A DNA stretch of 64,000 nucleotides, taken from contig JAGYKP010000086.1 of NCBI GenBank assembly GCA_018401555.1, positions 168,049 through 232,048 of the forward strand. Direction: 5' to 3'. The position numbers and the translations under genes are program-made. This document shows positions 2,525-14,787 of the stretch, one piece after another. This DNA comes from Halomonas sp. (lineage in GTDB: Bacteria; Pseudomonadota; Gammaproteobacteria; Pseudomonadales; Halomonadaceae). Each line of letters starts with the position of its first letter. Positions within the stretch are counted from its first letter, which is position 1. The notes under the pieces were generated by a model. The model searched no databases. It saw only the letters and a list, made by a program, of their open reading frames with translations, and had not been told where the DNA came from.

Positions 2525-3898
2525 ATGATGGGAACTTCACGCCAGGCCCTGCTGATAGGAGACCCGCAACTTGCAGGCTTTGTAGCCCTGTCATTACAGC
2601 GGTTCTCATGGAGAATCTATCTCACCAGCTGTCTCGACGAGGCTGAGAAGTTACTCCAGATCAAGTCTCCGCTTTTGGGTATCATTCTGCTGGGGCCTCA
2701 CCACGCCAGTTCCTCTTCCAAACTGGACAGACTTCTTACTCTGGTTCCGGCGACCCTTTGGGTGGCACTCCTCGACACGTCTCCCCCCCAAGACAAGAGA
2801 CTGTTGGAGCTGATTTCCCGCTACTGCCACGCCTACCTGCCCCTACCCCTGCATCCCGAGCAGGCCAATCACGTTCTTGAAAACGCACTCACCATGGCGG
2901 GGCTACTGGCCACAAATTTCAGCTCCCTCACCAGGCTGCCGCAACCCGGCAGCATGCAGACATGATCGGCAGGTCCAAGGCTATTCAGACGCTGCTTAGG
3001 GATATCGAGAAGATCGCCCCGGTAGACGCCCCGGTGCTGATTACCGGGGAGTCCGGAACGGGCAAGGAGCTGACGGCGAGGCTGATCCATGAGCGCTCCA
3101 CCAGGCAAAATGGGCCCTTCCATGCCGTGAACTGCGGTGCGCTACCCGCCGGCCTGATCCAGTCCGAACTCTTCGGCCATGAGAAGGGGGCCTTCACTGG
3201 CGCTGACCAGAGAAAGGTCGGCATCATCGAGTCAGCGGCGGGCGGCACCCTGTTCCTCGACGGAGATCGGTGACCTGCCCCTGGAACTCCAGGTCAACCT
3301 GCTTCGCTTCCTGGAGGGCCATCGCTTCTTCCGCCTGGGCAGCCTGCGGGAGACTGAAGTCGATGTCCGGGTGCTCGCCGCGACCCATGTCGACCTGGAA
3401 GAAGCCGTGAAGGCAGGGCGGTTCCGGGAGGACCTCTATCACCGACTCAACGTCCTGCAGGCCAGAACCCCGCCGCTGAAGGAAAGGCCCGAGGACATCG
3501 ACGAGTTGGCCGGGCATTTCCTGGAGCAGTTTCGCACTGAGTCAGCCTGCCGGGTTCGCGGCTTCAGCCACGACAGCCTGGTTACCATGCGCCAGTATCA
3601 CTGGCCGGGAAATATCAGGGAGCTCATCAACCGGGTGAGACGGGCCGTGGTGATGTGCGAACAGCGTCTCATCACCCCGGACAACCTCGGCCTTGAGAGG
3701 CGAAAGGATGTCGTCAGATGTCACTCGTCGCTGGACGAGATCCGGGACGGCGCGGAGCGCGATGCCGTGATAGCCGCTCTGGCACGCAACAAGCATCAGG
3801 TACTGCATGCGGCACGCGACCTCGGGGTATCCCGAGCGACCCTCTACCGCCTGATCGAGAAACACCGAGTTCACCGCTCGCTCTCGGGCCAGGCGTAA
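2525..3898 (+). CDS. VpsR-like sigma-54-dependent transcriptional activator (two frameshifts)
   Basis: Three ordered parts are seen. Residues 1 to about 145 form a receiver-like domain without a conserved phospho-acceptor aspartate (LLGIILLG where Asp is expected), as in VpsR. The AAA+ domain follows with Walker A GESGTGKE, the sigma-54 contact loop GAFTGAD, and Walker B GGTLFLD. A Fis-type helix-turn-helix ends the protein (AARDLGVSRATLYRLIEKH). The frame breaks near 2960, where the first part ends in TGA overlapping an ATG, and near 3265, where an extra G turns LDEIGDLP into LDGDR. Both flanks match the family, so one full-length protein of about 455 residues is inferred. It sits 21 bases before the barrel gene. 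A candidate sigma-54 promoter at 8392-8407 is a likely target. VpsR relatives control biofilm genes and some bind c-di-GMP. Confidence 0.8.
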
Positions 3899-3919
3899 CC
3901 AGCCACAGGAAATGCCACC

Positions 3920-4987
3920 ATGACTCCATATCAGCGTTTGCTCATCGGCGTGACCGGCTTCGTGTCATTGGCCAGCGCCCCCGCCTTGCTCGCCCAGGAA
4001 ACCATCCAGCCCGTCGGACAGGAGCCGCCGCCCAGCGAGCCGGAGTTCAACGTACAGTCGATGGCGGAGTATGGCGGCGTGCTGACCCCTCGGGGACGCC
4101 TGATGCTCGAACCGGAATTCCAGTACACCCACGAGAGCATCAACCGCATGACCTTCGAGGGCGTCGAGGTCCTCAGCACGCTGCTAATCGGCGTCTTCAC
4201 CGCCCAGGATATCGACCGGGATAGCTACATGGCTGCCATGACCGGCCGGCTCGGGGTCACCGACCGGCTCGAGCTGGAAATGAAGGTGCCCTACGTCTAC
4301 CGCGATGAGTCCTCTCGAGTCAGCGTGGCGGAGGTGGACCCAGCCTTCGACATCGACCGCGCCCTCTCCAACAACGGACTGGGCGATATCGAGGTCGCCG
4401 CCCACTATCAACTGAACAGGGCCAGAGAAGGGCGGCCCATCTATATCGGCAACCTGCGTTACAAGTCCACTACCGGCGACGGCCCCTTCGACATCGAGCG
4501 CAATAGTGCGGGAACACCAGGCGAACTGCCTACCGGAACCGGCTTCCATGCTATCGAGCCCAGCATCACCATGCTCTTCCCTTCGGCGCCGGCAGTGTAT
4601 TTCGCCAATCTCGGCTACACCTACAACCTGAGCGACACCATCGACCGCCCCGTTGGCGACGAGATCTTCGTGGGCAAGGTCGACCCGGGGGATGCCGTCA
4701 GGGTCAGCTTCGGCATGGCCTATGCCATCAACCCGCGAACCTCCTTCACCCTCGGCTACAAGAACGACTTCATCGGCAAGACTCGCACCGAGTACTTCGA
4801 CCCCACGACCGGCCGCTCGACCTCGCAGAACTCCAGCACCCTCAACGTGGGTGCCATGCTGCTCGGCTGGTCCTATCAGCTCAACCAGGACACGGCGATC
4901 AACCTGAACTTGGAGTTCGGCGTCACCGAGGACGCACCGGACACTGTCCTGACCCTGCGCATTCCCTTCGGCATGGACCTGTTCTGA
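3920..4987 (+). CDS. outer-membrane beta-barrel protein (transporter/MetA-pathway type)
   Basis: A 355-residue exported protein with a signal peptide of about 25 residues (SAPALLAQ). The mature part alternates short amphipathic strands with turns rich in Asp, Gly and Asn and ends in a terminal aromatic strand (TLRIPFGMDLF), as expected for an outer-membrane barrel. The pattern GRLGVTDRLELEMKVPYVYR and LGDIEVAAHYQL fits the barrel family often annotated as transporter or phenol MetA degradation. It follows the sigma-54 activator by 21 bases and faces the convergent peptidase operon. In Fap amyloid systems a barrel (FapF) exports fibre subunits; that role here is inference. FapF has an N-terminal coiled coil, which is not evident in this protein. 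Confidence 0.7.
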   Translation: MTPYQRLLIGVTGFVSLASAPALLAQETIQPVGQEPPPSEPEFNVQSMAEYGGVLTPRGRLMLEPEFQYTHESINRMTFEGVEVLSTLLIGVFTAQDIDRDSYMAAMTGRLGVTDRLELEMKVPYVYRDESSRVSVAEVDPAFDIDRALSNNGLGDIEVAAHYQLNRAREGRPIYIGNLRYKSTTGDGPFDIERNSAGTPGELPTGTGFHAIEPSITMLFPSAPAVYFANLGYTYNLSDTIDRPVGDEIFVGKVDPGDAVRVSFGMAYAINPRTSFTLGYKNDFIGKTRTEYFDPTTGRSTSQNSSTLNVGAMLLGWSYQLNQDTAINLNLEFGVTEDAPDTVLTLRIPFGMDLF

Positions 4988-5102
4988 CTCGCCGTTGCCT
5001 GAAACAGACAAAAGAGGTCGCGCCCCTGGGCCAGGCCCATGCCGCGGCCTCTCTTGCTGTACCCCGATTCGCCTCCCCTTTCGTCCCTCCGAGCATCGCC
5101 GA

Positions 5103-5782
5103 TCAGCGCAGCAATCCGGGAAAGGCGTCGACGATCGCCTGGCGCTGGCGAGCCATCTGCAGTTGACCCACATTGCTGGCCCGCACCTGGATATCGATCC
5201 GCTGGTCGATGGCGGTACCGGAGGCGTTGGTGACCACACCGCTCAGGATGGCATTGTTGGTAATCTGGTGAAGCGCCGCCGTAAAGCCCCGGGTATCCTC
5301 CAGGGCCACCCCGGAAAGCCGGCAAACCCGGTCAGGTCCACGCCATTGGGGGTCAGGTCGGTGATGCGGACTCCCGTTCCCTCCCCGACCAGGGCGGCCT
5401 TCCCCGTCGGATCGCTGAGGGTACGGGATACCAGGTCGATGCCGGTGGGTGTGATGTTCACCAGGGAGACCAACTGGACCTGCTCATCGATCCGGGTGGT
5501 GAGCTCGGCACCGAAGGCCAGCTCCATGCCGCCGATACGGAACCCGCCCCTCAAGGATGCCAGCTCCATCTCATCGATCACCTCGCCACGATGGAAGATA
5601 TCGTGCTCGCCACGCGTTTCCGACCAGAACCGCTCGCTGCCCGACACCTCGAGGGAGGCCATGGCAAGGCAGCTCACCAGGACAGCGGCCGGCCATCGCC
5701 TGTAGAGGGCGACTCCGGCCCCGCCGCGCGCCTGACGGTCCAGGCAGGCTTCTCTCTTCACGCTCTCCAAGGTATTCGCCAT
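5103..5782 (-). CDS. exported protein with a double-glycine (LRGG) motif, next to a C39 peptidase (frameshifted)
   Basis: About 226 residues once a one-base loss in the G run near 5305 is repaired (FPG continues as VALEDTRGF). Residues about 31-50 form a hydrophobic export segment (WPAAVLVSCLAMASLEVSGS). Near residue 80 the string MELASLRGGF resembles the double-glycine leader sites cut by C39 peptidases. The rest is rich in Val, Ile, Thr and Asp with repeated short beta-like segments (FGAELTTRID, LVSLVNITPTGIDLV) and ends AFPGLLR. It starts 3 bases after the stop of the peptidase gene, so the two are almost certainly co-translated. I do not recognise the family. A role as substrate or partner of the peptidase is inference. 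Confidence 0.65.
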
Positions 5783-5785
5783 GGT

Positions 5786-6527
5786 TCAACGCCCCAGTTC
5801 ATTGACGGCAGGTAACGTCAGCAGACTGGCACCGATGCCCGTCCGGCTGACTCCCTGATCCACGGGTGAGCTGGGGCGAACGGCCCAGTCACGCTCGTCA
5901 TTGAAGTGGCGCTGCGCCACCTCGAGGTCGGCGCGTGCGCCCAGCACGGAGCCGTTCCACAGCGCCTCGAAGTGATCCCGAGGCACCACCAGGGTGCCCG
6001 CTGCGGGATCCCCGACCAGGACATGCTGGCTGTCGATTCCCTTGACCACGACGAAATGCCGGTAGCCGGCCGTGTTGACCATGGTGATGGCGGGCACGCC
6101 GATGCGGATGAAGTCATCAAGGGAGATTCTGAAGCCGTCGGAGTCGAACCCCCGATGGTCCAGGTAGCGTTTCATGTCCAGCATAGAGAAGCCGTGCCGC
6201 TGGATCTGCTCCGGGTCACCGGCACGAATCATCCACTCGAAGACTTCGGCCTCCGAGGTGGGCCGCTCATAGTGATGGGTCAGCAGGGTCGCCACCGACG
6301 CCGAGCCGCAGCTGAAATCGTATTGCTGGGGCACCACGCGTTTCCATCCGATCTCCTGCAGGCTGCTGGCTGCGACCTGGAAAGTACCGAAGTGGCTGGA
6401 GATCACTCACTGGCCCCGAAGCCAGGCTCCCCGATGCGACGAGCCCACCGCCTGCCATCAGCAGCACGGTCAACAACCCGCGCAACAAGCCCCGACTCGT
6501 TGAATGCAGAACAGTGCCGAAAGGCAT
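5786..6527 (-). CDS. C39-family cysteine peptidase, FapD-like (frameshifted near the signal peptide)
   Basis: The catalytic core has QQYDFSCGSAS (oxyanion Gln and nucleophile Cys), GYRHFVVVKG (His) and VGDPAAG (Asp), the arrangement of C39 bacteriocin-processing peptidases and FapD. There is no ABC transporter or membrane domain attached, so it is a stand-alone exported enzyme. The start at 6527 has GGAGG about 7 bases upstream and gives a signal peptide (GLLTVLLMAGGGLVASGSLA). The frame then breaks near 6400. It lies downstream of two secreted-protein genes and is coupled to the LRGG-motif gene. Likely role: proteolytic maturation or secretion control of surface proteins in the periplasm. 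Confidence 0.8.
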
Positions 6528-6594
6528 GGCCGCCCTCCATAAGCTTAAGCCTGTCGACATCCCGGTGAGATGTCGCCGAGTGACTCGTCTCGTG

Positions 6595-7017
6595 CTAGTC
6601 GGCCGAGATGAACACGCTGATTCCCACCGCATTGTTGATGGCATTACCGCTGCCAGTCACGGCACTGAAGATCCCCGTTCCGCTGTAGTTGCCCATGGCG
6701 TTGGCATCGAAGCGGATGTTGCCCGACACCATGTCACCATTCACCACCGAGATATGGGTATCGGTGACCACGGCCTGCATGTTCTGGATGCTCTGGGCCG
6801 ACTGAAAATGGTTACCGCCCCCCTCTCGCGCCCGGGTGGAGGCCATCTCGCCCATCGACACCCGTTCCACCGCGGCAAAGCCGAGGCCCTGGGCACCTCC
6901 CACGCTATCGGCGCTCGCGGTGCCGCCCAATGCCAGCGGGAATAGCACCAAGGCCCCGGCCAGCCCGATGAAACCACGCCGCCCCGATCCCGAAATTCTG
7001 CCATCATGCCGCTTCAT
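6595..7017 (-). CDS. small secreted adhesin- or fibre-like protein
   Basis: A 140-residue exported protein. The N-terminus has twin arginines (SGSGRRGFIGLAGALV) before a hydrophobic segment ending TASA-D, so Tat or Sec export is possible. The mature part holds SIQNMQAVVTDTHISVVNG followed by an Asn/Gly/Ser-rich end (NYSGTGIFSAVTGSG). A similar pair, VISLQEMSSVVNG and SGVFGGISN, occurs in the larger glycine-rich protein upstream, so the two look like related secreted subunits. The start at 7017 has a GGGGAGA site. No database family is claimed. A minor or nucleating subunit of a surface fibre is a reasonable inference from the context of C39 peptidase and barrel. Confidence 0.6.
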   Translation of the reverse strand: MKRHDGRISGSGRRGFIGLAGALVLFPLALGGTASADSVGGAQGLGFAAVERVSMGEMASTRAREGGGNHFQSAQSIQNMQAVVTDTHISVVNGDMVSGNIRFDANAMGNYSGTGIFSAVTGSGNAINNAVGISVFISAD

Positions 7018-7057
7018 GACCTGTCTCCCCGTCCGCCAGGGTGCTTCGTAGTCCAAT

Positions 7058-7088
7058 GGAAGCCGGCGGCACTGCGCCACCGGCTTCC
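7058..7088 (-). terminator. strong stem-loop between the two secreted-protein genes
   Basis: The 31-base stretch folds into a stem with arms GGAAGCCGG and CCGGCTTCC plus an inner GGC/GCC pairing around a short loop. It lies between the stop of the glycine-rich gene (7119) and the start of the small secreted gene (7017) on the same strand. No T run follows, so it may act as a processing site or partial terminator that sets the ratio of the two subunits rather than as a full stop. Confidence 0.55.
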
Positions 7089-7118
7089 CGTTCCATGCTT
7101 GACGATTGCCTCGACGGA

Positions 7119-8278
7119 TCAGTTGCCGATGCTCACGTTGCTGTGTGCCGCCACGTTGGTACCGGCCACCTGGGCATTGTAGAGGCCGGTGGACGACGTT
7201 CATATTGCTGATGCCACCGAAAACGCCGGAGCCTACATTGACGTTGGCCGCACCAAGTCATCAGGCTGGCACCACCGCCGTTGCCGCCGTTGCCACCGGC
7301 ACCGCCGTTGCCGGCCGTCGCCATGGCATCGCCGGTAGTACCGCTGCCGGCCCCGCCACCGCCACCAGCACCGTTGCCAGCCATTGCCGGCCACAGCGCT
7401 GGCATCACCACCACTACCACCAGCCCCGGCCGTCGCGGTTCCAGTTCCACTGCCGTCGCCGCTGCCTGTTCCTGTGCCATCACCACCGGTACCACCGGAA
7501 GCAGTAGCGTCAGAACCGGCATCGGAGGTTGCATCCTGAGAACCACCCGCGGCCAGGAGGCCACCATCACCGGCGTCATCATTGTCAGCTGTTGACGAGG
7601 CTGTCGAGGTCGCCGCAGCACCAGCCGCTCCCCTTCGCCACTAGCCAGACCCAGGCCCAGCCCAAGGCCGGTTCCGGTGGCAGCTCCGCCATCTTCGCCG
7701 CTACCTGCGTTGGCCACGGACTGACCGCCAGCTCCGCCGGTGCCACCACCGCCATCACCACCGGTACCGATGCCGAGGTTGATGGCGGCTGCGGTTCCGC
7801 CAGCACCGCCCGAGGCTCCAGCCGCACCGCCCCCACCGTTGATGGCGATGCCAGCGCCGTTGACCACGGAGCTCATCTCCTGGAGGGAGATGACGCTGGT
7901 GGAGGTGTTGTAGGACTCGCTCATGGCCCAGGCATCACCTCCGCGCCCGACGCTGCCGCCGTTGCCACCTGTTCCGGTCCCTGCACCATAGCCACCGGTT
8001 CCGGCACCGCCTGTCCCGCCAGCTCCGCCACCTCCGAGGAAGCCTTCATCGTCATTGCCGCCGTTGGCGTTACCACCAGTACCACCGCCCCCGACTCCAA
8101 GCCCCAGGCCAGCGCCGCCCCCTGCACTGCCACTGTTACCTCCAGTGGCCGTGGCGGTGGAGGTCACGTCCTGATCGACGCTGTCTGCCACGCCGGCACT
8201 CGGGTTCGCATGGGCAGTGGAAACAGCCAGCACCAACGCCACCAACGGGGTACCCGCAATCACTAGATACTTGTTCAT
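7119..8278 (-). CDS. large glycine/alanine-rich secreted protein, candidate fibre subunit (several frameshifts)
   Basis: The start at 8278 follows GGAGAC and gives a signal peptide (MNKYLVIAGTPLVALVLAVS, cut after AHA). About 350 residues of low-complexity Gly/Ala/Thr/Ser repeats follow (GGAGGTGGAGTGG type), interrupted near residue 120 by a non-repetitive segment, SYNTSTSVISLQEMSSVVNG. The frame breaks near 7640, near 7400 and twice between 7190 and 7270. Reading through the breaks keeps a Gly/Asp/Ala-rich composition and ends ANVNVGSGVFGGISN ... NVSIGN at 7119. Composition and the partner genes point to an exported structural fibre or adhesin. Repeats of this kind are also hard to sequence. 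No named family is claimed. Confidence 0.65.
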
Positions 8279-8391
8279 GATCATGTCTCCGTGTGTTGTC
8301 TCTGCTGCAGCCTGCGAACTCGCGCCACCGTCCTGATCATTCCTTCCCGGACCCTTGAATGACGCATCCCGCCCGCAGTCACCGTATCGGG

Positions 8392-8407
8392 AGCAGTTTC
8401 CGTGCCA
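8392..8407 (-). promoter_or_regulatory. sigma-54 promoter for the glycine-rich gene operon
   Basis: On the minus strand the 16 bases read TGGCACGGAAACTGCT. This matches the sigma-54 consensus TGGCACG-N4-TTGCW with correct GG-to-GC spacing and one mismatch. It lies about 115-130 bases before the ATG at 8278, and the same module encodes a sigma-54-dependent activator at 2525-3898. Regulation of one by the other is inferred. Confidence 0.75.
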
Positions 8408-11477: not shown

Positions 11478-13283
11478 TCAGGCCGGGAGTGGCAGCATCA
11501 ACAGGAGCAAGCCCCTGGCGACTCCCATCATCAACACCGCCGCATGGCGGCAGCCACCCCTCGCCGCGGGCCAGGCCATCCAGCGTCCGGATGGCGTCGC
11601 GCTCCCGCGCCATCCACCAGGCCACCCAGGTCCCTTTCATCGCCGCCAGCCGCGCTTCCACGGCACTGGCCATAACCGCCGGGCGCCCCGCTCCCCGGGC
11701 CAGTGGCCGCCGGAGATCTCCCGGCGGCGGTCGCCAGGCCATCGCCACGCCCCGCCGGGCGAGGCCGGGCCGCCGGCAGCGCCCAGGCCAGGCCCGCCAG
11801 CACCGGCCACCAGAGGGCCAAACAGCTCCTCCGCGGCGGTGGGTTGCTTCGGGGCCGAGCAGCGGCAGCCACCACGGCAGCGTCAGCGCGCTTGCCGCAA
11901 GCAGCAGCCAGGCAAGCGGCATGGGGGCGGCAAGCGGCATCGAGCCGTCCTCGCGCGCCTGGCGCGCTCCTGCCACTGGCACCACAGGGTGCGTGCCATC
12001 AGCAGCGTGGTGCCCACCGCCGCCAGGGAGAGCCAGGTCACCAGCGTCTTGTGGCCTGCCTCGTAGAGCACCGACTTGAAGGCCCACTTGGTGACGAGAC
12101 CCGAGGCCAGGGCGCCGCCGAGCGACAGCGCCGGCAGCGCCAGCAGTGCCCAGAGCAGCCAGGCCGGCAGTCGTGGCGGATGCTCGCCGATGCCCACGCC
12201 CAGGAAGAGCACTCCCTTGGTGAGCCCATGGTGGGCGGCGAAGAGCACCACCGCCGCCGACAGCGCCGGCCACAGCGCGGGTTCGGTCAGCCCCGTCCCC
12301 ACCAGGGCGGCGAGCATGCCGAGCTGGCTGACGCTGGAGTAGGCCAGCACCGCCTTGGGGTGGCGCTGGCAGACGCCCATCAGGGCGGCAACGATGGCGC
12401 CGACAAGCCCCACCACCAGCATGGCCCGCCCCAGCCCGACAAAGCCTGCCTCGGCCGGCTCCCCCAGGGGCAGGGTCATCATCCAGCCCACGACCCCGGC
12501 CTTGACCATGGCGCCGCTCAGCACGGCGCTGGCCGGGGTGGGCGCCACCAGGTGGGCCAGGGGCAGCCACAGATGCAGCCCCACCACGCCCGCCTTGACG
12601 CCGAAGCCGAGCCACAGCAGCATGCCGACCCAGGCGCCGTGCTCCAGCGTGGCGAGCCCCTCCCTCAGTCCTCCCAGGGTCAGCGTTTCCAGGCTGCCGG
12701 CGCCCCACAGCAGGCCGCCCAGGATCAGCCCCTCCCCCAGCATCGCCATGATCAGGTAGGCGCGACCGCCAGTGAGGGCGCTCCGGGTTCCGGATTGGAT
12801 CACCAGGCCGTAGGCGGAGAAGGTCATCACGGCGAACCCCAGATAGAAGCTGGCGATATCCTCCGCCACCAGGAGCAGCAGGTTGCCGGAGAGGGTCAGC
12901 GGCCAGAGCACCGCGAACCGGGCAAGGCGAGACGCCGCCCTGCCGTCGCCGGCCTGGGCCCGCGCGCCATCGCCCGCCAGGTAGCCCCGGGCATACCAGC
13001 CGGCGAGCAGCCACAGCAGCGCGGTGAAGACCAGCAGCACCCGGCGCGACTCATCCAGACGCCACTCGCCGCCCAGCAGCCAGGCCGACATGGCAGGGCT
13101 GCCGTCGCCGCCCAGCAGGGCCAGGGCAAGCGCGGGAAGCGGCGCCGTGGCCCACGGCGCGTCGAGGGGAAAGCGCACCTCGCCACGCCCGGCCAGGGAC
13201 GCCATCAGCGGCTCGCGCAGCACCAGCAGCAGTGGCCAGAGGGGCGCGGCGATCATCAGGGCGGCGAAGACCTCCTGGCTCAT
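11478..13283 (-). CDS. complex-I-like proton/cation antiporter subunit, NuoL-like (frameshifted)
   Basis: About 601 residues (net in frame) of a polytopic membrane protein of the proton-conducting transporter family. Key features are WLPLAHLVAPTPASAVLSGAMVKAG (transmembrane helix 7 and 8 region with the broken-helix lysine), HHGLTKGVLFLGVG, and GVKAGVVGLHLWLP. Frame breaks occur near 11945, 11830 and 11500. Read through, the C-terminus has a long charged stretch (RLAAMKGTWVAWWMARERDA) and a last hydrophobic helix (GLLLLMLPLPA). This is reminiscent of the lateral helix and final helix of NuoL; that comparison is inference. The gene is last in the operon, and its ATG overlaps the stop of the previous gene. 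Confidence 0.75.
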
Positions 13284-14787
13284 GGCAGATACTCCAGGTT
13301 GGCCACCCGGGTCGCCCACTCCAGCGGAGCTGAAGGGCAACCCGGCCAGCAGCCCGGCCAGCACGCTGAACAGCGCCGTGGCAACGGCCGGCAACAGCAG
13401 CCAGGCGCTGGTCTCGAAGCGACCGAGGCGGCGCTCCTCAGGCCACTCGCCGACGCCGTGATCCGGGCCGACCCCGAACCACAGCCGATAGACGAGCGGC
13501 AGGAAATGAGCGGCGTTGAGCAGGCTGCTGGCTACCAGCACGGCGATGATCCAGGGCATGCCGGCCTGCACGGCCCCCATGCCCAGATACCACTTGCTCA
13601 GGAAACCCACCAGCGGCGGCAGGCCGATCATGCCGAAGGCGCCGACGGTAAAGGCCAGGCTGGTCAGCGGCATGCGCCGCCCCGCACCGTCTAGCTCGTC
13701 GATGCGGTGGATGCCGAGCTCCTCGGCGTAGTTGCCGGCGCAGAAGAACAGGGTGATCTTCATCAGTCCCTGATGAAGCAGATGGGAGAGCGCGGCGATG
13801 GTGCCCAGCGGGCCGAAGAGCCCGATGCCCAGCACGATGTAGCTCACCTGGCTCACCGTGGAGAAGGCGAGCCGAGGCTTGAGCTCCACCTGGGCCAGGG
13901 CACGCAGCGAGCCGTAGAGGATGGTCACGCTGGCGATGGCGGCGAGGCCGGTGAGCAGGCCCAGCGACTGGCTGAACTCGGCACCGTAGACGTCATAGAC
14001 CAGGCGCACGATGCCGAAGGCGCCGGCCTTGACCACCGCCACCGCGTGCAGCAGCGCGCTGACCGGCGCCGGCGCCACCATGGCACGGGGCAGCCAGCCA
14101 TGCAGGGGCACCAGAGCCGCCTTGACCCCGAAGCCGGCGATCAGCACCCAGAAGATAACGATCAGGGCACCCCGCTGCTCGCCACCGAGGCCGGCGAGGA
14201 TCTCCCGCTGGCCGAAGCGGATATCCCCGGCCAGGACATGCAGTGCCACCAGGCCGATCATCAATACCAGCCCCGCGGTGAGGGTGAAGCGCAGGTAGAG
14301 GGTCGCCGCCGCCAACGACTTGCGCGTGCCACGGTGAGCCACCAGCGGATAGGTGGAGAGCGTCAGCAGCTCGTAGAAGATCAGCAGGGTGAAGAGGTTA
14401 CCGGCCAGGCTGATCCCCAGGGTGCTGGCCACGCAGAGGCTGAAGAAGCCGAAGAAGCGCTTGCGGTTGGGGGAGTCCTCGAGATAGCCGATGGCGTAGA
14501 CGGTGGTGAAGAGCCAGAGCAGCGAGGAGAGCCCGGCGAACATGATGCCCAGCGCATCGGCACGCAGCACGAAGGCCAGCCCCTCCAGCACCGGAAACTC
14601 GACCGCGTACTCACGACCCTGGCTGAGCCCCCAGACCATCCAGGCCACCAGACCCAGCTTGACCAGGGCCGCAGCGAGGTTGAGTCCGGTGCGGGCGCGG
14701 AAGGCACGCTCCGGCAGCAGGGAAGATGATCGCCGCCGCCAGCAGCGAGGTCGCCAGGGTCGCCACTGGAAAGAAGGCCGCGCTCAT
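13280..14787 (-). CDS. complex-I-like proton/cation antiporter subunit, NuoM/MrpD-like (frameshifted)
   Basis: About 502 residues with at least 12 membrane helices. Diagnostic antiporter-subunit segments are YPLVAHRGTRKSL, GVKAALVPLHGWLPRAMVA, APVSALLHAVAVVKAGAFG and LSHLLHQGLMKITLFFCAG, carrying the conserved lysines and glutamate region of the proton path. The N-terminus reads MSAAFFPVATLATSLLAAAI, and the frame breaks near 14725, continuing as LLPERAFRARTG. A second break near 13330 restores a C-terminus ending ATRVANLEYLP, whose TGA overlaps the ATG of the next gene. Ion specificity (Na+ or K+) cannot be told from sequence. Confidence 0.8.

Follow-up and report, generated by a model that had tools for sequence, protein, structure and literature searches.

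A gene cluster at positions 2,525 to 8,407 of a 64,000-nucleotide stretch of DNA from Halomonas sp. (GenBank assembly GCA_018401555.1, contig JAGYKP010000086.1, positions 168,049 to 232,048 of the forward strand; the whole stretch is called the window below) was analyzed, and we think it probable that this cluster encodes a sister system of Fap, in which fiber subunits would be secreted through Sec and a FapF-type barrel and a periplasmic C39 peptidase would trim an E-like protein. The sequence-only reading had placed six features here, an activator, an outer membrane barrel, a glycine-rich protein, a small secreted protein, a C39 peptidase, and a protein with an LRGG motif (the E-like protein), and all six were found where it had placed them. 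The minus-strand operon runs, in order of transcription, from the glycine-rich gene through the small secreted and C39 peptidase genes to the LRGG gene, and it is convergent with the activator and barrel genes on the plus strand. The observations that carry our interpretation are the homology of the barrel and the peptidase to their Fap counterparts, the co-occurrence and layout of the genes, the conservation of a leader in the E-like protein, and the enrichment of a promoter-like site.

Relationship of the barrel and the peptidase to Fap

The barrel matched the NCBIfam FapF model with an E value of 4.5e-42 and 144 bits, compared to a curated cut-off of 700 bits and to 379 bits for the true FapF of the genus. 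When a profile of 14 barrel homologues was compared to PDB, only the FapF structures 5o65, 5o67, and 5o68 were matched, with a best E value of 1.2e-38, and the predicted model of the barrel had a predicted local distance difference test (pLDDT) score of 64; FapF itself is a 12-stranded pore. The C39 peptidase matched Pfam Peptidase_C39 with 68.5 bits and NCBIfam FapD with an E value of 2.3e-36 and 125 bits, compared to a cut-off of 330 bits that was passed by none of the 58 relatives that were searched with this model, including those with a true Fap system. The catalytic Cys, His, and Asp columns were invariant across 14 aligned C39 sequences, and the C39 copies of the relatives start, as judged by eye, with a signal-peptide-like stretch that is frame-shifted in the window. 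In the profile search against FapA to FapF and the curli families that had been suggested as a check, FapD and FapF were recovered, whereas FapA, FapB, FapC, and FapE were not, and curli families were absent from the Pfam and NCBIfam matches of the cluster proteins. The LRGG, small, and glycine-rich proteins matched no Pfam family and nothing in NCBIfam other than a chance-level match of the LRGG protein at an E value of 0.013. FapA, which was not matched among the cluster proteins, is often missing from Fap as well, according to part of an earlier survey (PMC3792158).

Like the Pseudomonas fapABCDEF system, the cluster combines a stand-alone C39 peptidase with a FapF-type barrel, its two subunit genes adjoin the peptidase gene in an order (large, small, D, E) that parallels fapB/C-D-E, and its FapE-like product has a leader motif whose spacing is that of FapE. 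Unlike Fap, which forms a single fapABCDEF or fapBCDEF operon, the barrel gene is on the opposite strand together with the activator gene, the leader ends in RGG or RAG rather than in the RG[R/K] of FapE, the large subunit is of low complexity, the subunits match none of the Fap subunit models, the barrel N-terminus is short in Halomonadaceae, and the peptidase falls into its own tree group. The earlier reading of the module as Fap-like was supported, and the module is taken to work like Fap, yet it is not classed as Fap because the subunit and synteny features tested are not those of Fap.

Conservation, spread, and sigma-54 control

Of the 58 relatives, 24 had a FapD match at an E value of 1e-10 or below. 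Among the 37 same-genus genomes, 9 had a strong match (272 to 286 bits) and 14, including the window, had a weaker one (118 to 143 bits). We regard the strong class as true Fap, since five of the six proteins scanned at one of its loci, L043, matched FapA, FapB, FapC, FapE, and FapF, all below the curated cut-offs, with one protein unmatched and the FapD of this locus known from the genome search. Three genomes from other families of the order gave weak FapD matches (114 to 127 bits), with G042 and G052 scoring far better with FilB. At each of the 13 other weak-class loci of the genus, the genes for the C39, LRGG, small, and glycine-rich proteins and for the barrel were laid out as in the window and came with an activator match; at one of them (L028) a contig end interrupts the glycine-rich gene. 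The VpsR-domain part of the window's activator found 7 of these 13 loci.

When named genomes were scanned with a peptidase profile, at least 565 stretches encoded a relative, and the following counts are for the best 80 of these 565. The C39 peptidase and the barrel occurred together in 76 of the 80 loci and were accompanied by an activator in 61, although the activator profile (6 sequences, E value below 1e-60) may also catch unrelated sigma-54 activators. All six profiles were found in 30 loci, 28 of them in Halomonadaceae; the profiles of the small and glycine-rich subunits were built from Halomonadaceae and miss distant subunits, and the subunits of distant loci were therefore assigned by position and by eye. 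In 65 of the 76 loci, the barrel gene was on the opposite strand, lying downstream in 54 of them and upstream in 11, and the remaining 11 loci had it on the same strand. It was on the opposite strand in the window and the 13 same-genus relatives as well, which bears out the earlier statement that the cluster has its own layout relative to Fap. Among the matches listed were Ectothiorhodospira, Thioalkalivibrio, Marinobacter, Vibrio, and Photobacterium, as well as Thauera, Cupriavidus, Pelagibius, Parvularcula, and Desulfopila. The gene neighborhood survey that had also been proposed thus shows that the genes co-occur and are conserved as a unit, and that the peptidase-barrel pair extends well beyond Halomonadaceae. 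Given the layout shared by the 13 same-genus relatives and the co-occurrence counts in the named loci, the arrangement exceeds what chance would produce. Searches of open-license PMC papers showed none that deals with this system.

At three named Halomonadaceae loci (L063, L066, and L067), the same 17 kb encode a FapD/FapE-like pair in addition to a window-type system. In genome G006 (locus L042), two FapD genes lie about 5 kb apart on one contig, and the window-type system is located elsewhere.

The activator matched Pfam VpsR with 37.6 bits (cut-off, 23.7) and Sigma54_activat with 139.1 bits. A -24/-12 site, counted when at least 10 of 12 positions agreed between 400 bases upstream and 150 bases past the first start codon in the glycine-rich open reading frame (ORF), was present in 24 of 34 loci, compared to 42 of 1,251 random windows of the same loci. 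In distant loci, such a site was found within 3.2 kb upstream of the C39 gene in 17 of 39 cases, a weak signal with no separate control. From this enrichment, the module is probably under sigma-54 control, as had been proposed. The dedicated activator had also been listed as a feature that distinguishes the cluster from Fap, and this was not supported: in the genus, all three true Fap loci examined have an activator region of 59 to 69% identity and a 12/12 -24/-12 site, and sigma-54 control is therefore common to both systems.

The E-like protein, the subunits, and the proposed mechanism

The leaders of bacteriocins cut by C39 domains have hydrophobic residues at positions -12, -7, and -4, an acidic residue at -8, and a glycine at both -2 and -1. 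This canonical leader was found in 46 of 79 E-like proteins (shuffled mean, 0.11) and in 2 of 1,708 control ORFs outside the neighborhood. Split by selection, it was present in 26 of 47 proteins chosen by profile, a selection that is partly circular for the motif, and in 20 of 32 chosen by position alone, which provide the cleaner test even with some picks that are plainly the wrong frame or the wrong gene. A looser form, in which the Arg of RGG or RAG has a hydrophobic residue four positions before it, was present in 72 of the 79 and has no control of its own. The part after the leader is about 140 to 160 amino acids long, is conserved, and has an invariant C-terminal Arg. The LRGG protein did not match the NCBIfam FapE model; it has the same position after the peptidase as FapE, and hhalign aligned it with FapE over the leader with a probability of 83.5% and an E value of 8.3e-6. 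The double-glycine protein beside the peptidase, previously counted as an extra part, is probably the counterpart of FapE, as the profile alignment suggests.

The leader of true FapE proteins has the same spacing and ends in RG[R/K][F/Y], with RGR invariant in 6 Halomonas FapE proteins. From 16 class-wide loci, 10 FapE proteins were obtained, all with RG[R/K][F/Y] as judged by eye and 5 caught by the strict pattern; five loci gave none, and an eleventh ORF (L139, E value of 0.47) is not FapE. According to passages of a 2017 report (PMC5557850), FapC secretion in Pseudomonas requires the active cysteine of FapD, the target of FapD was described as unclear, canonical C39 sequences were reported to be absent, and of the Fap proteins FapE alone was completely processed at its N-terminus, with its first ~70 residues unseen. 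The FapD substrate was still called undetermined in a passage from 2018 (PMC6173800), and a section of a 2025 review gives FapE and FapF as the presumed substrates of FapD (PMC12822426). Our comparison predicts an exact FapD site in FapE, which would lie at RG[R/K]. The published FapE peptide map does not prove this site because trypsin itself cuts after the R or K of the motif.

True Fap loci of the genus also contain extra small proteins of about 110 to 145 amino acids (L042:7357-7791, an approximate area only; L043:6989-7330; and L044:6600-6947) that share an LxxxxLxxxxGR leader-like motif, several of them also carrying VILWDE. Four stretches of these accessory proteins fit the leader spacing, the one from L043 matched nothing when scanned against NCBIfam, and they may be further FapD substrates.

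The body of the large subunit is of low complexity, with a median of 30% glycine (range, 11 to 35%) in 34 loci, and its repeats elsewhere are of the DNS type in Marinobacter and the TKT type in Methylomonas; the structure model of the glycine-rich protein had a pLDDT score of 31. In profile comparisons, the small protein aligned with FapE over the signal peptide and leader (87%, E value of 4e-6) and more weakly with the LRGG protein (47%). In distant members, the small and large proteins have a C-terminal module in common (89%), recalling the paired design of FapB and FapC; the stretch common to the two in Halomonadaceae is shorter (49%). At L097:145-7428, an open frame of 2,427 amino acids with VQQNNG-type repeats lies upstream of a window-type peptidase and may be a giant repeat subunit. 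A nearly identical peptidase at L103, from the same sampling series, is filed under Chloroflexota, probably through a binning error.

In the sister system that we propose, the VpsR-type activator would switch on the convergent operon, and Sec would export the operon products, whose signal peptides were judged by eye. The periplasmic C39 peptidase would then cut the E-like protein after its double-glycine leader (...ELxxLRGG, before F) and might cut the small protein at the corresponding position. Once trimmed, the E-like protein would prime or open the FapF-type barrel, which would export the small, nucleator-like subunit and the large low-complexity subunit, from which a surface fiber would be built. 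More tentatively, and with a little less than an even chance of being right, the cluster may represent a second class of fiber secretion parallel to Fap in gamma-, beta-, and alphaproteobacteria and beyond. Such a class would pass interchangeable low-complexity subunit bodies (glycine-rich, DNS repeat, or TKT repeat) through a FapF-type pore, its export would be gated by periplasmic double-glycine cleavage of the E-like protein after Sec, and the same leader, with R or K in the last position, would be the FapD site in FapE.

Several points weigh against the proposed mechanism. Sec export, cleavage, the order of events, barrel export, fiber formation, and amyloid nature are inferred, and no fiber, cleavage, or export was observed. 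The subunits scanned matched no FapA, FapB, FapC, or FapE model, in line with the earlier claim that they differ from those of Fap. Evidence of a leader was weak in the small proteins: of 75, 4 had the canonical form and 29 had a looser core (shuffled mean, 1.2). At eight Halomonadaceae loci (L046 to L053) the E-like protein lacks the RGG core, its aligned orthologues showing RAG. The idea that the small-subunit module is a Fap repeat, akin to the imperfect amyloid repeats of FapB and FapC, was rejected after profile comparisons with FapB, for which the profile contained only 2 sequences, or FapE gave no match, and a hidden Markov model of the module placed 4 of 19 Fap proteins above the 99% shuffle level, a marginal hint only. 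The large subunits of Halomonadaceae and of distant members align at the signal peptide only, and their equivalence therefore rests on position and on C-terminal resemblance judged by eye. FapF homologues are said to possess coiled-coil domains, the FapF domain being essential for secretion, in part of one study (PMC6173795). The barrel has 116 to 270 residues before the landmark in 11 distant loci, and its short N-terminus in Halomonadaceae counts against gating identical to that of FapF. Lastly, a passage of PMC5557850 also proposes that FapD cleaves FapF at GG motifs of its own.

Frame breaks and alternative explanations

Table 1. Positions in the window of the genes and sites of the cluster
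Feature	Positions	Strand	Remarks
VpsR-type sigma-54 activator	2525..3898	+	Three frames here; Pfam VpsR, Sigma54_activat, AAA_lid_14, HTH_8
FapF-type outer membrane barrel	3920..4987	+	NCBIfam FapF, E value of 4.5e-42
E-like (LRGG) protein	5103..5782	-	Two frames here: 5243-5782 and 5103-5309
Double-glycine-type leader of E-like protein, VIDEMELASLRGG before F	5540..5581	-	Read from sequence; conserved in homologues
C39 peptidase	5786..6406	-	Pfam Peptidase_C39, NCBIfam FapD
C39 catalytic residues	Cys in 6302-6316, His in 6053-6064, Asp in 5996-6013	-	
Small secreted protein, putative nucleator-like subunit	6595..7017	-	Alignment with 13 homologues
Degenerate leader-like stretch in small protein, VSMGEMASTRARE	6823..6861	-	
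Glycine-rich secreted protein, putative large subunit	7119..8278	-	Frame breaks; low end read from sequence
-24/-12 (sigma-54) promoter-like site, TGGCACGGAAACTGCT	8392..8407	-	11/12 positions

The window copy of the cluster has broken reading frames in the activator (near 2962 and near 3266) and in the LRGG gene (near 5310), the signal-peptide-like stretch upstream of the C39 start sits in another frame, and the C-terminus of the glycine-rich protein is distributed across three frames. These breaks could mean that the cluster is a decaying remnant in this organism, which we consider unlikely, as the barrel gene and the body of the C39 gene are open, the promoter-like site is intact, and two genes beyond the borders of the cluster (2-1188 and about 11968-13593; by eye, L,D-transpeptidase-like and antiporter- or Nuo-like) are likewise split between frames. 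Because these flanking genes are also broken and the assembly is 77% complete in 106 contigs, assembly error, such as indels, is a likelier cause than decay of the cluster alone. Relatives have open copies of the cluster genes, with the activator a single ORF of 451 to 551 amino acids where its N-terminal part finds them.

Somewhat less likely still, the cluster could be an ordinary Fap operon that has diverged and been rearranged rather than a separate lineage. This would account for the FapD- and FapF-like proteins, the FapE motif of the E-like protein, and the activator and -24/-12 sites that the true Fap of the genus likewise has, and part of PMC3792158 names a fapF gene set apart from the operon and a missing fapA as the commonest Fap deviations. 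Conversely, G006 and G020, of the same genus, carry both the strong and the weaker FapD type, and no FapB, FapC, or FapE model was matched. In a quick tree of 95 peptidases, the window type (54), Fap (24), and Fil (17) each fell on one side of a branch, with supports of 86, 97, and 99, the value of 86 being below the 95 that earns a star and the tree program having warned of long branches. Peptidase scores from 369 class-wide genomes were also split: 45 had a match at an E value of 1e-20 or below, 15 at 218 bits or more and 30 at 150 bits or less.

It is very unlikely that the leader protein is itself secreted as a double-glycine peptide or bacteriocin, with the C39 peptidase and the barrel as its exporter. 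The C39 domain is indeed related to those of PCAT/ComA-type ATP-binding cassette (ABC) bacteriocin exporters, which were the matches of the peptidase in PDB (best, 6mpz, E value of 2.7e-7), and the leader has the canonical spacing, which the presumed substrate here presumably shares with the substrates of such exporters. However, the peptidase stands alone, with no ABC transporter domain found by Pfam or NCBIfam in it or in any of the six cluster genes, and, unlike in those exporters, its copies in relatives begin, as judged by eye, with a signal-peptide-like stretch. In addition, the leader is followed by a long, conserved part with an invariant C-terminal Arg, and the barrel is of the FapF type. 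Least likely of all is membership in the Fil "putative pilus" system, an Acinetobacter operon that also has a C39 peptidase and a related barrel, since the matches to NCBIfam FilB (E value of 1.1e-33, 117 of 475 bits) and FilC (E value of 1.4e-20, 74 of 630 bits) were below the cut-offs and weaker than those to FapD and FapF, and the window-type peptidases lie in another tree group, outside the 17 Fil-type rows.

If the cluster is a sister system of Fap, its canonical cutting signal points to the matching place in FapE, and the open question of the FapD substrate becomes directly testable; a peptide assay can therefore settle it. In addition, Fap screens are described in part of the 2025 review as requiring FapB/C repeats (PMC12822426). 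Such screens would be expected to miss clusters like this one, and the spread of such systems is therefore probably underestimated.

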